A DNA stretch of 64,000 nucleotides from Patescibacteria group bacterium (GTDB taxonomy: Bacteria; Patescibacteriota; Gracilibacteria; UM-FILTER-43-11), in assembly GCA_018817125.1 (NCBI GenBank), contig JAHIUN010000004.1, forward strand, positions 1 to 64,000, given 5' to 3'. The stretch's first letter is position 1. Each line of letters begins with the position of its first letter. Shown here one piece after another: positions 13,363 to 22,147 of the stretch. Position numbers and translations under genes: made by a program. The notes under the pieces were generated by a model. It was not told where the DNA came from and searched no databases. It saw only the letters and a program-made list of their open reading frames with translations.

Positions 13363-13962
13363 ATGCGCCCTATAAAATGTGATAAAAAATCAGATAAACA
13401 GCTCGTCTCTCTCACGTTAAAAAATGCGGATTATTTTGAATGTTTGGTCCAGCGTTACGAAGAAAAACTAAGCCGCTACATCCGCCGGCTCACTCATCTA
13501 GATACGGAGACGATCGAAGATCTGCTACAGGAAGTATTTTTAAAAATCTATAAAAACCTGAACGATTACAATCCTGATTTTTCCTTCAGCAGCTGGATCT
13601 ACCGCATTACTCACAATGAAGCCATCAGCCATTTCCGAAAAAACGAAAAAAAACCAAAAACGGTTCAGATAGACAATGAAGAAGGAGTGAATTTTCTGGA
13701 CATCCTGCCCGATAACATCAGTTTAAGAGATGATTATGTGCAAAAAGAACTCGCCCAGAAAGTACGGGCGCTCATCGATGAACTGCCGGAAAAATACCGC
13801 GCGGTGCTCATCCTAAAATTCATGGAGGAAAAAAATTATGAAGAAATCAGCGACATTCTGGAAATCCCGACCGGCACCGTCGCCACTCAGCTCAATCGCG
13901 CCAAAAACCAATTTAAACAACTCGCTATCAATAATCACCTCCATAAACCCGATAACCAATAA
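13363..13962 (+). CDS. ECF-family RNA polymerase sigma factor
   Basis: A 199-residue sigma-70 family protein with only regions 2 and 4. Region 2 is at about 20-85 (TIEDLLQEVFLKIYKNL, SFSSWIYRITHNEA) and region 4 at about 135-190 (LPEKYRAVLILKFMEEKNY, EIPTGTVATQLNRAK). Such factors direct polymerase to a small stress or envelope regulon. A membrane protein begins 3 bp after its stop, the usual place for a membrane-bound anti-sigma factor. Confidence 0.88.
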   Translation: MRPIKCDKKSDKQLVSLTLKNADYFECLVQRYEEKLSRYIRRLTHLDTETIEDLLQEVFLKIYKNLNDYNPDFSFSSWIYRITHNEAISHFRKNEKKPKTVQIDNEEGVNFLDILPDNISLRDDYVQKELAQKVRALIDELPEKYRAVLILKFMEEKNYEEISDILEIPTGTVATQLNRAKNQFKQLAINNHLHKPDNQ

Positions 13963-13965
13963 ACC

Positions 13966-14700
13966 ATGTCGCAACTCGCCCAATCCATCATCGGAAAAAT
14001 CAAGAAAGAAAAGGTAAAACCAACCCCTAAATGGGTGTTCTTGTTTAAGCGGTCGGTAATATGGGGATTATTTGGTCTTTCTGTTCTGTTCGGCAGTATG
14101 GCCATGAGCATCATCCTATTTCAATTGAGAGATATGGATTACTCGGTTTATAAAGAAATGGGCAGCAGTCTGGCGGGTTTCGTGCTTTTAGCCCTCCCCT
14201 ATTTCTGGGTGCTTCTGCTCATCGGCTTTCTGGCATTGGCCTGCTATCACTTACGCCATACTAAATCCGGTTACCGTTATAATGTGTTCGCAATTATCGG
14301 ACTAAGCCTAGTGGCCTCAATCCTCTTCGGTACCGGCCTGTACGCCACAGGCGTCTCCGGAAATCTGGAAAAAGCCTTCCGGAAGATCCCCTATTACGAA
14401 CGTCTGCATTTTGGCAAACGAATAATCTGGAATAATCCGGAACAAGGCTTTTTAGCGGGCACGATTATTCACATGGGAGACGGCCGGATCATTCTTTTAA
14501 GAGACCTAAAACAGGAATCCTGGCGCGTGGATATTGAAAAAACCAAAATGCGCCGGGAGTTTGAGATGGAACGAGGGGTACGGATCCGGCTGATAGGGAC
14601 AGCCACCGGTGATTATGAGTTTGAGGCTTTTGGGATCGCCCCCTGGCTGCGCCCCATGGAACCTCCGCCCCTTTTCCGGCGGATGGAATTAAAAAAATGA
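13966..14700 (+). CDS. Three-TM membrane protein next to ECF sigma, candidate anti-sigma
   Basis: A 244-residue protein with membrane segments at about 27-49, 65-90 and 104-128 and a C-terminal soluble domain rich in beta-strand patterns (MGDGRIILLRDL, VRIRLIGTATGDYEFEAFG). No zinc-type anti-sigma motif (HxxxCxxC) is visible in its N-terminus. The 3-bp gap to the sigma gene implies co-translation. An anti-sigma or signal-sensing role is inferred from position only. It ends in TGA. Confidence 0.65.
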   Translation: MSQLAQSIIGKIKKEKVKPTPKWVFLFKRSVIWGLFGLSVLFGSMAMSIILFQLRDMDYSVYKEMGSSLAGFVLLALPYFWVLLLIGFLALACYHLRHTKSGYRYNVFAIIGLSLVASILFGTGLYATGVSGNLEKAFRKIPYYERLHFGKRIIWNNPEQGFLAGTIIHMGDGRIILLRDLKQESWRVDIEKTKMRREFEMERGVRIRLIGTATGDYEFEAFGIAPWLRPMEPPPLFRRMELKK

Positions 14701-14776
14701 AAGAAATTTTTACGCTAAACGTAATAAGGGGTGAGACAATCGATTGCTCACACAATTATTAACTAAACTAAAAGTT

Positions 14777-15301
14777 ATGAATATGATAAACAAAATCATC
14801 CCGACCGGTCTGGCGACCTTGATCATTTTACTGGCGGTCGTCTTTGCCACCTCCGCTGATGAAGGGGATGAAACCCCGGCCAAAGGTCTCCGTTTCAGTG
14901 CCGAAAATAGGGAAGCGGTTATGGAAGCCGTTGAAAAATGCGACTATGACGCCTGGTACAATGCGTTGACCGAAAACGGCAATGAGCCGCCGATGCTTGA
15001 ATATATAAATGAAGGAAACTTTGCCCGCTTCTGCGAAATGCACGATCTGCGCATGCAGGCCCAGGCAATCGCCGACGAACTCGGACTCCCTAAAAAAGGA
15101 ATGAGAATGGGAAAAGGAGGTTTTAAAGGACATGTCCAGCGCCTCGAACTCACCGACGAGCAAAAAGCCGTTATGGAACAGGTGCGCGAACTGATGCAGT
15201 CCGGTGACCGCGAAGGCGCTCAGGCCCTTATGGAAGAAGCCGGCATGCCCTTTGGCAAAGCCATGAGCAGAAAATCCGGACACTGGAACCAAAACCAATA
15301 A
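14777..15301 (+). CDS. Exported LTxxQ-motif protein (Spy/CpxP-like)
   Basis: A 174-residue protein with an N-terminal export signal or anchor (residues about 5-27), then a helical mature part. The LELTDEQKAVMEQ segment carries an LTxxQ motif as in Spy/CpxP envelope-stress proteins, followed by EAGMPFGKAMSR. Start 14777 (ATG AAT ATG) is preferred to a non-ATG start upstream. It follows the ECF sigma and membrane protein genes and ends at a terminator (15326-15364), so a shared envelope-stress module is likely. Confidence 0.65.
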   Translation: MNMINKIIPTGLATLIILLAVVFATSADEGDETPAKGLRFSAENREAVMEAVEKCDYDAWYNALTENGNEPPMLEYINEGNFARFCEMHDLRMQAQAIADELGLPKKGMRMGKGGFKGHVQRLELTDEQKAVMEQVRELMQSGDREGAQALMEEAGMPFGKAMSRKSGHWNQNQ

Positions 15302-15325
15302 ATCCGATCAGGAATTAAAACCAAA

Positions 15326-15364
15326 AAAACTCCTTCTTGGCCTTCAGCGAGAGGGAGTTTTTTT
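15326..15364 (+). terminator. Rho-independent terminator after the LTxxQ gene
   Basis: AAAACTCC (15326-15333) pairs with GGAGTTTT (15354-15361), followed by more T. Confidence 0.75.
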
Positions 15365-15409
15365 ATGTGCAGTAAAACGCAGAATAGACCTTCCAGTCTG
15401 CAATGTGTT

Positions 15410-15460
15410 AAAACCTTTTTGCCTGCCCTGAGCAAGGCCGAATGGGAAAGGTTTTCGGAA
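15410..15460. repeat. REP-like hairpin with CCCTGAGC core
   Basis: AAAACC...AAAGGTTTT encloses GCCCTGAGCAAGGCCGAATGGG, a variant of a palindrome (GCCCTGAGC..CGAAGGGC) that I recall as widespread in environmental genomes. Its right arm AAAGGTTTTCGGAA (15447-15460) is identical to 2624-2637 behind gatA, so the two spacers share an element. Confidence 0.5.
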
Positions 15461-15463
15461 TAC

Positions 15464-15486
15464 AAAAAAACCCCGATCAATCGAGG
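15464..15486 (-). terminator. Minus-strand terminator of the structured RNA
   Basis: On the minus strand CCTCGAT-TG-ATCGGGG followed by seven T. One pair is a G-U wobble on this strand but a mismatch (C-A) on the other, which favours minus-strand use. Confidence 0.65.
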
Positions 15487-15970
15487 TTCTTTTGTCTGAT
15501 TTCGAGACTCCCATTCGTACAGCACATTTACAACGTACCGAGAGTATGGGTCGAAACCAAACTTATCCAGGTGACTAAGCTGGAAAAGTTCTAAGCTGTA
15601 CTTTGGTTTTTGTTTTCGTCCTTCCAAGACGCAATCTATGCGTTACCTTTGTATTTTTATTTTTGTTTTTAAAAATCAAGATAACAGATTATAAGGGGTT
15701 GAGCTCGCACTAGTCGTGAGGAGCTACAGCGTAAAGCCCAGAAGTGAGTCATTCAGGGGGTGAATGACCCAACCCCAGACTTTACAGAACCGCCGGGCCC
15801 TTATATTACGGTGTCACATAATGTCGCAAGCGACGTGACGGTGTAACGCGGGAACCAAGCAGTAAGTAAATAGTTTGTAAAAGGTCAGGTGGGGTCTTCA
15901 GTGATCATTCTGGCCGGCTATATAATGAGCCGCGAAGTGATGTGAATTGGTTGATCTGCGCTGAACAAAT
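15464..15970 (-). ncRNA. Structured non-coding RNA of unknown class
   Basis: An 875-bp stretch (15302-16176) has no credible protein gene but carries a strong minus promoter (15977-16005) and a minus terminator (15464-15486), which bound a transcript of about 500 nt. Inside are many helices: AGGG/CCCT-type closing stem near 15688-15696 and 15798-15806, GTAAAG/CTTTAC (15731-15736 and 15780-15785), an 8-bp stem with four-base loop GTCATTCA/TGAATGAC (about 15748-15767), AGCTC/GAGCT (about 15701-15726) and GTCGC-AA-GCGAC (15823-15834). No hallmark of RNase P, tmRNA, SRP RNA or 6S RNA could be found, but a divergent version of one of these is possible. Confidence 0.5.
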
Positions 15971-15976
15971 CATGTC

Positions 15977-16005
15977 ATTATACGTAAACCATATTTTTTT
16001 TGCAA
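15977..16005 (-). promoter_or_regulatory. Promoter of the structured RNA
   Basis: On the minus strand TTGCAA (16005-16000), 17-bp spacer, TATAAT (15982-15977). Transcription would begin near 15970. Confidence 0.7.
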
Positions 16006-16107: not shown

Positions 16108-16136
16108 TTGACAAATTTATTATTTTATTGTAAAAT
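16108..16136 (+). promoter_or_regulatory. Promoter of the 16177 gene
   Basis: Consensus TTGACA (16108-16113), 17-bp spacer, TAAAAT (16131-16136). Leader of about 35 nt without a Shine-Dalgarno. Confidence 0.75.
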
Positions 16137-16176: not shown

Positions 16177-17220
16177 ATGTCTAGTATAAAAAATCCTAGT
16201 TTTGCAGCCTCTGAATATTGGCCAGATCATAACGATGACCCGGCAGATGCTAAAAGGCAAAAACCGTTGATTGCACAAGTGGCCAAGACCGAAAAAGGCC
16301 GTGCCATGCAATTGTACGCGGAAGAATGTGAATTAGAAGCTAGCGAAGGCCAGGATCCGGAATCTTTACTGATTGCCAGAGAAGAAGCGGCCGCTCAGCT
16401 TACAAAAGAGCATCGGGAAAAGCCTAAAGAGAAAACTGATGGTAAAAAATTGACCCGAAAAGCCAGAACGCTTCTAAGATTCAATCAGGACATATTAAAC
16501 CAGGTAGCCGATGAGGCAGAAAAGAAATTGAGCGAAAAAGACACTAACAAAGCTCACAGACTAATTGCCCGCCTGGAAGGCTTAAAAATGCCGGCGATTA
16601 TCGACCGGGAAATGGAAAAAGATTATCAGGACGTTATCGACGCCAATCGTGGCCGTAAAGCACAGCTTGAAGCCATTAACAGCGTTTTAGCCCCCCTGTA
16701 TGAAATCACTGAAAAAGCAAATGAGGAGAATGAACAGGTTAAAGAATTAGCCCATCAGGCCATCGCTGAATTAAGAAATAAACGACAGGCTTTAAAAGCC
16801 ATCAGCGATATTCTTTCTACCCCGAAAGAAAAACGGATGCCAAACTGGTATCAGGTGGTACAAGGCTGGAACCGAGAGGTATTACAATCAGGAAAATACC
16901 TTTTAGCGCTTTTCACCCGCGCCCGCGCTACCAATCCGGACGTCATGCTAAAAGCCTACCCAAAAATAGCTCATGAGGCACCGGAACTGAAACAGGATTA
17001 TATCGAAGCCGTTACCGCCTTCACCGGCAGTCATAATCACTTCAGCTTCTCCGAAACAGTGATGGAAGAGGCCCGCCGGCATAAATCCCCGCTGGCCCGC
17101 AGAATCGATGGGGTAATGAAGCAAGAACGTCCGGAAGAAGACGAAGTGGAATCCTTCCACACGACCATCACACGACTGCCTAGAAAAAAGATAAAAGAAG
17201 TGCTGAAAATGATCGCTTAA
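16177..17220 (+). CDS. Large helical hypothetical protein
   Basis: A 347-residue, soluble, Lys/Glu/Ala-rich, almost wholly helical protein (for example LNQVADEAEKKLSEKD and ELAHQAIAELRNKRQALKA), with a more globular C-terminal 100 residues (WYQVVQGWNREVLQSGKYLL). It is not recognised. It has its own strong promoter and a terminator at 17237-17287, so it is a single-gene unit. The acidic protein at 56394 has a similar style but no clear alignment. Confidence 0.7.
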   Translation: MSSIKNPSFAASEYWPDHNDDPADAKRQKPLIAQVAKTEKGRAMQLYAEECELEASEGQDPESLLIAREEAAAQLTKEHREKPKEKTDGKKLTRKARTLLRFNQDILNQVADEAEKKLSEKDTNKAHRLIARLEGLKMPAIIDREMEKDYQDVIDANRGRKAQLEAINSVLAPLYEITEKANEENEQVKELAHQAIAELRNKRQALKAISDILSTPKEKRMPNWYQVVQGWNREVLQSGKYLLALFTRARATNPDVMLKAYPKIAHEAPELKQDYIEAVTAFTGSHNHFSFSETVMEEARRHKSPLARRIDGVMKQERPEEDEVESFHTTITRLPRKKIKEVLKMIA

Positions 17221-20552: not shown

Positions 20553-21676
20553 TGTTTGAAAATTTGGCAAACATCTTAAAAGACATGGGTGGAAAAGAAA
20601 AAAGGGAAAAGAAGGAAAAAGGCCTGGAGCCTGAGCTGGATAAAGCCCGTGCAGAACGGGAAAAACTGCAAATGGAGGTCGGTTTGCCGATTGAAACAGC
20701 AAGGCGTAGGTTCCGTGATGCTGTAAGACAAGACTTGGTTGAACTCCGCATAGTTCATCCCAGGGACCAGGCTGAATATTTGGATATTGCCATGCGGCTC
20801 TTTGACGAAGGCATAAATAAAAAACCTACCCAGCATGCGGAAAAAGTTGCAGGAGAAGTAGGTTTAAACAAATTTCTAAATGAGCCTGGAACTTATAGTG
20901 AAAAATTAGGTAAGATAATCGATTCTGCAGACCCGAAAAAAGAGGCTAAAAAATGGGCGAAAAAAGTAGAAAAGGATGGGAAAAAACATGGATTTTTAAG
21001 CGGCCTTATCGGCGGATGGCTGTTTAACTGGGCTGCCGAATTGCAAACAGAAAATAAAGGGGAAAACACATGGCTGGGCAAAACACTAAAAAAACTGGCT
21101 GGCTTTTTGGGTTTTAAGGAGGAAGAAAATAAAGAAGGGGGGAAGGGGGGTAAAAAAATCGACGCTCTGGCTAAAAAAGAAGCGGCGAAAAAGCCCGAAG
21201 CGCCCGCCCACGAAAGGGAGATCAAAGACCTGAAAGACCTGCTTGTTTTCGCCGAAATCCCTGTCGTCTTCAAAAAGGCCGATTACGAAGAAGTGCTGAA
21301 AACCAGCCCCATCAACGGCGACCCGGAAATTCTGAAAAAAGTGGTGATGAAAAAAGCGGGAAAAACGGGTGATATCTGGATGATGAATGCGCAGACAAAA
21401 GAAGAAAACAACCTAAAAGACGGAAAATTTAAATTCAGACTGAACGACTTTCTGGTCTCCACAGAAAACCTTAAGGCTGTTTATAACGCCCTCGTATATA
21501 AGAGTGCTGAGAGAAATATTTATCAATTTCCCAATCCTAAAAACATCACCCCCAATGATCTAAGAGGTCTTTTGGACGCCGTGCGTACAGGAGAAGGGCT
21601 CGGCCCATACAAAAAGCCGCCCGTCGTCGCCTCGGCCCAACCGCCCGCCGAGCCAGCAGAAGGAGGCGAATCTTAA
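20552..21676 (+). CDS. Hypothetical protein of the cluster, 374 residues
   Basis: It is not recognised. The N-terminal 190 residues are helical and charged, with one Gly/Trp-rich hydrophobic stretch (HGFLSGLIGGWLFNW near 147-161) that could touch a membrane. A Lys/Glu linker (about 190-225) follows, then a mixed alpha/beta domain (about 230-345) and a Pro/Ala tail. It is coupled to the gene before it and 9 bp from the gene after it. Confidence 0.65.
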   Translation: MFENLANILKDMGGKEKREKKEKGLEPELDKARAEREKLQMEVGLPIETARRRFRDAVRQDLVELRIVHPRDQAEYLDIAMRLFDEGINKKPTQHAEKVAGEVGLNKFLNEPGTYSEKLGKIIDSADPKKEAKKWAKKVEKDGKKHGFLSGLIGGWLFNWAAELQTENKGENTWLGKTLKKLAGFLGFKEEENKEGGKGGKKIDALAKKEAAKKPEAPAHEREIKDLKDLLVFAEIPVVFKKADYEEVLKTSPINGDPEILKKVVMKKAGKTGDIWMMNAQTKEENNLKDGKFKFRLNDFLVSTENLKAVYNALVYKSAERNIYQFPNPKNITPNDLRGLLDAVRTGEGLGPYKKPPVVASAQPPAEPAEGGES

Positions 21677-21685
21677 TAAACACTT

Positions 21686-22147
21686 ATGCCCGAAATCAAT
21701 ATTAACATCACCGACATGGATTTACTGGACCGGCTGAAACACAGCTACATCGACCCTGCCCAAAAACAGGAACTCGAAGGCCTGCTCCCGCAGATGACCA
21801 ACGACGAACGCACCAAACTGATCCAGCTTATTGACCAGGCCGACGAGGAATACCGCACCGCGCAGGTAAAATACAAGGAAGGGCTGGAAGGCTTCCATAA
21901 AGAGCTGAAAGAAACGGATGAAAAATTCCGTAAAGATTTTGAAGCGGTGGGAAAAAAGGAAGAAGGAAAAGAGCTGAAGAAATTTGAAAAAGAGATTCAG
22001 GAAATGACCGGCAACCGGACAATGACTCCACGGGAAACCGTATTAAAAGAAGCTAAAAAGAAACACACCCTACGCAACTTAGTGCTCGGCCTGGCGCTCC
22101 TCGCCGCCGCTGCCGGAGGCGTTCTGTATTACCTAAACGCCCTATAA
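21686..22147 (+). CDS. Tail-anchored hypothetical protein
   Basis: A 153-residue protein with a long charged coiled-coil-like region (about 50-125) and a single hydrophobic C-terminal segment (NLVLGLALLAAAAGGVLYYL, about 131-150). The topology predicts a tail-anchored membrane protein with its bulk in the cytoplasm. Its stop overlaps the next start at 22147. No family is known to me. Confidence 0.65.
   Translation: MPEININITDMDLLDRLKHSYIDPAQKQELEGLLPQMTNDERTKLIQLIDQADEEYRTAQVKYKEGLEGFHKELKETDEKFRKDFEAVGKKEEGKELKKFEKEIQEMTGNRTMTPRETVLKEAKKKHTLRNLVLGLALLAAAAGGVLYYLNAL

Follow-up and report, generated by a model that had tools for sequence, protein, structure and literature searches.

Stand-alone, multi-branch RNAs of several hundred nucleotides that carry kissing loops and A-rich loops include OLE, GOLLD and ROOL, whose function is unclear and which assemble through kissing loops without protein (PMC12286853). 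Stand-alone RNAs of another kind, RsmY and CsrB (RF00195), end in a terminator, contain GGA-bearing hairpins and occur as paralogous copies. The housekeeping RNAs form a further group for comparison, and comprise 6S RNA (a long hairpin with a central bubble), tmRNA, RNase P RNA and the RNA of the bacterial signal recognition particle (SRP). Few RNA classes combine large size, wide conservation and tertiary structure.

The window analysed here, a stretch of 64,000 nucleotides from the genome of a very small, uncultured member of the Patescibacteria, carries on its minus strand at 15970-15464 what is almost certainly a new structured non-coding RNA gene of about 500 nt. With OLE, GOLLD and ROOL it shares the stand-alone layout, the size, the multi-branch fold with a kissing loop and A-rich loops, and an unclear function. 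Unlike them, it has so far been seen in one Patescibacteria class only and without any observed link to phage, it gives no sequence or covariance-model match to them, and its kissing loop seems, on present evidence, to form within one molecule. With RsmY and CsrB it shares the stand-alone layout with a terminator, the GGA-containing hairpins and the paralogous copies, but its key loop lies in a pseudoknot and is not always GGA, and it scores 29.9 bits against an RsmY cut-off of 57. Its gene layout is housekeeping-like and its size falls in the range of 6S RNA, tmRNA and RNase P RNA; however, it has no core in common with these RNAs, which occupy separate loci in the same genome (6S RNA and tmRNA) or in relatives that carry the new RNA (RNase P RNA), and it is a multi-branch junction rather than a 6S-like bubbled hairpin. 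The likeness to bacterial SRP RNA is that of a housekeeping RNA expected but undetected in the class; the new RNA differs from it in lacking domain IV, in its architecture and in being present in multiple copies in many genomes.

Promoter, terminator and flanking genes

The original prediction described a TTGCAA-N17-TATAAT promoter and a strand-specific terminator bounding a gene-free, highly paired stretch, and each of these elements was recovered. The promoter, of the sigma-70 type, occupies 16005-15977 of the minus strand, with 10/12 matches. Placing the RNA start about 7 nt downstream of the -10 box gives a gene of about 507 nt, from the inferred start at 15970 to the U-tract at 15464, both ends being inferred. 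The intrinsic terminator and its U-tract occupy 15487-15464, also on the minus strand, with the hairpin ACCUCGAUUGAUCGGGGU at 15487-15470 and Us that end at 15464. Among homologues the promoter takes the form CTTGCA-N16/17-TATAATG and is conserved in the family alignment; its mean score over 48 homologues is 9.6 on the sense strand versus 7.6 on the antisense strand. A terminator is found past the core on the sense strand in 42 of the 48 homologues, versus 8 of 48 on the antisense strand. The sequences of these terminators are unrelated and their position is kept: the distance from the core is about 45-140 nt, in most cases 85-115. The terminator is thus an independent sign of a structured RNA gene.

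On one flank, an unassigned, LTxxQ-like reading frame ending at 15301 points towards the RNA gene and has its own terminator; on the other, the gene for a 347-aa protein, likewise unassigned, starts at 16177, points away and has its own 11/12 promoter at 16108-16136. Given this orientation and the separate terminator and promoter, the RNA stretch is a separate transcription unit. That the RNA is expressed as its own gene is an inference from promoter and terminator, with no transcript data behind it. The genes that end at the RNA gene (13363-15301) have the appearance of a stress-response operon: they include a gene for an ECF-like sigma factor with Sigma70 regions 2 and 4, a membrane protein gene (13966-14700) and the LTxxQ-like gene (14744-15301), whose product found no match in a Pfam search.

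The minus strand of 15972-15464 folds at -155.4 kcal/mol (z = -6.83, with 0 of 100 shuffles equally stable), versus z = -2.42 for the plus strand of the same region, so that the strong pairing is strand-specific. The core alone (15741-15555) reaches merely z = -2.1, and energy is thus not decisive for the core by itself; conservation is. One open reading frame, 15220-15627 on the minus strand, overlaps the 3' part of the RNA gene. A coding reading of this frame was rejected: it crosses the terminator, it has no Pfam family above cut-off, and in most homologue cores all six frames checked are closed.

Fold, tertiary contacts and covariation

All parts of the RNA described here lie on the minus strand. 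The 5' domain (15970-15742) is variable in length and sequence among relatives. The conserved core (15741-15555), which was found by three covariance models, R1 to R3, and scores 151.5 bits with R3, is a junction closed by helix P1 around hairpins b, c and d, with hairpin e next. P1 pairs CUGGGCU at 15741-15735 (class consensus CUCUGCU) with AGCUUAG at 15597-15591. Hairpin b (15725-15702) has in its loop the first kissing strand, GACUAG (15715-15710), whose partner at 15578-15573 is the UUAGUC loop of hairpin e (UUCCAGCUUAGUCACCUGGA, 15585-15566). Hairpin c (15690-15633) is built from an AAUCU/AGAUU helix and a GUUAUCUU/AAGGUAAC helix and ends in an A-rich terminal loop. The loop of hairpin d (CGUCUUGGAAGGACG, 15631-15617) supplies the first strand of a pseudoknot, UGG at 15626-15624, which pairs with CCA (15606-15604) inside the most conserved single strand of the RNA (AAAACAAAAACCAAAG, 15616-15601). 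Helix f, of 12 bp and family-specific, joins GUUUGGUUUCGA at 15562-15551 to UCGAAAUCAGAC at 15505-15494. A further helix around hairpin e, CCAAA x UUUGG, was dropped, as it is broken in loci L009 and L010.

A third helix, P0, links the 5' domain to the edge of the core. Its upstream strand GUAAAGUC (15785-15778), carried by the 5' domain, pairs with GGCUUUAC at 15738-15731, a strand that overlaps P1 and shares GGC with it (15731-15741). A GUAAAG-like upstream partner is present in 15 of the 16 aligned family copies. The overlap of P0 and P1 reflects either coaxial stacking or alternative, competing pairing, and the choice between the two is undecided; competition for the GGC could mean a two-state switch. 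In one homologue (L004), a single G-to-A change is matched on both partners of P0/P1.

Two alignments bear on the fold. The first, of 16 cores, was made with MAFFT without structural information; it has 97.0% standard pairs, two-sided changes at 22 of 41 pairs and a covariation score of 0.362, and 0 of 500 shuffles matched it in pairing, two-sided count or covariation score. Sliding the partners by 1-3 columns lowers pairing to 28-43%, with two-sided changes at no more than 9 pairs. When helix f and its hairpin are included, 32 of 58 pairs have changed on both sides. The second alignment, of 44 diverse sequences, has two-sided changes at 38 of 45 pairs and 433 compensatory cells, versus 137 in shuffles and at most 89 with slid partners; this alignment was made by fitting to the model and tends to favour the structure, whereas the 16-sequence alignment involved no such fit.

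Both tertiary contacts covary. The kissing loop between hairpins b and e, GACUA x UAGUC, occurs in the versions GACU/AGUC, AACU/AGUU, GACC/GGUC and GACG/CGUC, and the hairpin e loop itself is UUAGUC in the window and CUAGUC elsewhere. The pseudoknot joins the hairpin d loop, UGGN, to NCCA in the conserved strand AAAACAAnnCCAAAG; outside the window's family most sequences have C-G, A-U or U-A as the N-N pair, which is A.A inside it. Short helices in a multi-branch fold had been proposed from the single sequence, and the comparison with relatives that was suggested at the time as a check came out strongly in favour of a structured RNA gene. Judged from these alignments, the minus strand of 15970-15464 is a structured RNA.

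Distribution, genomic context and copies

A DNA search found homologues in 15 of the 18 genomes of the window's family (Candidatus Peregrinibacteria), with one copy in the window's own genome. In the family alignment the promoter (AAACTTGCA...TATAATG), the 3' core and the terminator align, and the 5' domain differs in length. Named homologue records belong to Candidatus Peregrinibacteria or Gracilibacteria, that is, to the Patescibacteria or CPR. Among 353 genomes of the class, the successive covariance models R1, R2 and R3 found the RNA in 20, 46 and 103, respectively; the R3 positives include 67 of the 236 high-quality genomes. Class matches at E below about 1e-4 span some 17 families. In distant matches inspected by eye, P1, the CUUUgcGAUG block, hairpin d and the CCAAAG strand are all retained, as are most of the kissing letters. 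The R3 search left 250 of the 353 class genomes without a detected copy, part of which may be explained by strict filters and fast divergence.

Outside the class the RNA appears to be absent from what was searched. In an even sample of 380 genomes of the phylum, all 12 matches fell inside the same class, and a search of phage records returned no match. Pattern matches in Clostridia, Rickettsiales, Kuenenia, Bacteroidota, Acidobacteria and Sediminibacterium were discarded for want of a model match, and those in three viral contigs were likewise not confirmed by any model; the lone exception among the pattern matches, 17.9 bits in L087, is near chance for a pre-selected sequence.

Neighbouring genes differ between lineages. 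Many genomes of the window's family have the RNA gene close to recG and pyrE, and in families f22, f25, f28, f29 and f32 it lies mostly by genes for F420-0:gamma-glutamyl ligase, a formyl transferase and an MscS channel. The RNA therefore has no constant cis target, and a trans-acting RNA is the simplest reading. The RNA tree largely follows the families, which fits vertical inheritance. Many genomes of f28, f29 and f32 have a second, diverged copy; in a FastTree tree these form a weakly supported group (0.80). Two of them are near a carA-like gene, and a dinG-like gene also occurs near second copies (these neighbours were named from sequence only).

Individual genomes add some variations. In G014 the two copies (L047:7958-8200 and L016:1400-1649) are unlinked and yet are each other's closest relatives, and one of them sits beside the F420-ligase and formyl-transferase genes, as in other families, so that this genome has a copy in each type of setting; the pair suggests recent copying or gene conversion. 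A genome of f28 (G284) has its own f28-type copy plus one close to the window-family type (L059:1099-1283, on G284:C23), which reflects either horizontal transfer or a mis-binned contig. In G002, two cores of equal score (L009 and L017; G002:C35:27147-27369 and 21473-21695) are about 5.7 kb apart on one contig.

Known RNA families and possible functions

When the window element and 20 homologue loci were screened against the 4227 families of Rfam 15, none reached its gathering cut-off at the element, and the models for OLE, GOLLD and ROOL gave no match in the window or those loci. RsmY was the best sub-threshold match for the window element; it was set aside along with Phe leader, PyrR and other matches far below cut-off, which reflect generic hairpins or terminators. 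The RNA is a new class because it has no Rfam relative, although in a looser sense "large orphan structured RNA" is a known kind. The open-licence papers searched for RNAs of Peregrinibacteria, Gracilibacteria or the CPR contain no description of it, nor of any RNA class from this group.

Several housekeeping RNAs can be placed elsewhere. In the window's genome (G000), tmRNA (RF00023) has a separate locus at G000:C11:28399-28819, with no tmRNA match in the window, and 6S RNA (RF00013) has one, over cut-off, at G000:C11:23058-23212. RNase P RNA (RF00010) has no match in the window and was found elsewhere, over cut-off, in 15 relatives, including one that also carries the element (G004); it was not found in the 88.7%-complete assembly of the window's own genome, probably owing to an assembly gap. 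The situation of SRP RNA is different. The models RF00169 and RF01854 have no match in the window, and neither the small nor the large bacterial type was found in 14-24 class genomes, G000 among them, at E up to 0.001 or 0.1; at E up to 3 there were merely three scattered weak matches. The same search was positive in most control genomes, and SRP RNA in this class is either lost or very divergent. Since none was found in 24 genomes, an SRP identity for the new RNA cannot be excluded by the presence of SRP RNA elsewhere. The domain IV motif (tetraloop plus AGCA-type internal loop), strict or loose, was absent from all 48 elements; it was tested as a sequence pattern, and a very derived form could escape. 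The original prediction had seen no hallmark of RNase P, tmRNA, SRP or 6S RNA. It had also left a choice between a new class in this lineage and a very divergent housekeeping RNA, of which the first is the better supported.

The proposed function is that of a scaffold for a ribonucleoprotein particle, a role that has been inferred rather than demonstrated and to which we give a little less than even credence. The RNA would be transcribed from its own promoter and act in trans. The alignments show that its core folds into a closed multi-branch junction locked by the kissing loop of hairpins b and e and by the pseudoknot between the hairpin d loop and CCA. In the proposed mechanism this rigid fold would offer a docking surface made up of the conserved single strand AAAACAAnnCCAAAG and the GAUG motif that follows P1. 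A lineage-specific protein, for which no candidate has been identified, may bind that strand and motif, and the resulting particle would have a role in cell maintenance rather than being a cis-regulator or a base-pairing sRNA. The conserved strand of the core is A-rich and nearly invariant. No constant neighbour gene is present that could encode the protein partner. Second copies are more usual among regulatory RNAs than among housekeeping particles, which speaks against a scaffold; the poor conservation of the 5' domain, and the many class genomes in which the RNA went undetected, also count against this best explanation. Taken jointly, the identity as a new RNA gene and the scaffold mechanism stand evenly poised between right and wrong. 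A broader version, in which the RNA belongs to a ribonucleoprotein or RNA machine of Patescibacteria that is class-wide and as yet unknown, whose pseudoknotted core has no counterpart in other bacteria, and which possibly replaces a universal one, is somewhat doubtful; replacement comes into consideration because SRP RNA is undetectable in the class.

Other functions can be envisaged for an RNA of this kind. It might titrate an RNA-binding regulator or polymerase, as CsrB/RsmY or 6S RNA does, with two copies corresponding to RsmY and RsmZ. The paralogues in many genomes, the UGG(A) loop of the conserved hairpin d, the weak RsmY score and the occurrence of one or more ANGGA motifs in 42 of 48 elements all point in this direction. 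However, many lineages have UGGC or UGGU as the hairpin d loop, and this loop is engaged in a covarying pseudoknot, unlike exposed, repeated GGA sites; with the RsmY score far under cut-off and 6S RNA at a separate locus, sequestration is unlikely. Copies of the RNA might instead join through kissing or other loops into a dimer or cage without protein, for which GOLLD, ROOL and OLE provide the precedent (PMC12286853). The RNA is large and ornate, its loops are A-rich, and its kissing loop could also form between molecules; but the contact is explained within one molecule, and the gene is chromosomal with a conserved location and no confirmed match in phage records or viral contigs, which makes homo-oligomers distinctly unlikely.

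A leader or attenuator of a neighbouring gene could exploit the GGC strand shared by P0 and P1 as a switch, and the matched change in L004 would suit such a device or a base-pairing sRNA. Yet the RNA has its own terminator on the far side, is oriented opposite to both flanking genes and has different neighbours in different lineages, and its conservation lies in the tertiary core and not in a free seed, so that we consider this reading highly unlikely. A highly derived SRP RNA of the class would fill the vacant SRP post. It is nonetheless very improbable, because domain IV is missing, hairpin d is a continuous stem with its loop in a pseudoknot rather than the SRP internal-loop/tetraloop motif, many genomes have two diverged copies and many relatives have no detectable one. 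Finally, the mildly unusual folding energy of the core and the overlapping reading frame might suggest chance helices or an unannotated coding region with no functional RNA at all; covariation contradicts this, the frame fails as a gene on the grounds given above, and the idea retains virtually no credibility.

The RNA offers a tertiary fold that can be tested, a recipe for a covariance model and clear predictions. It raises the question of what RNA the signal recognition particle of this class uses. About a hundred related species of ultrasmall bacteria have retained the RNA and its fold, although their genomes are reduced and would be expected to hold little non-essential DNA, and it therefore probably does a job that has not yet been described.
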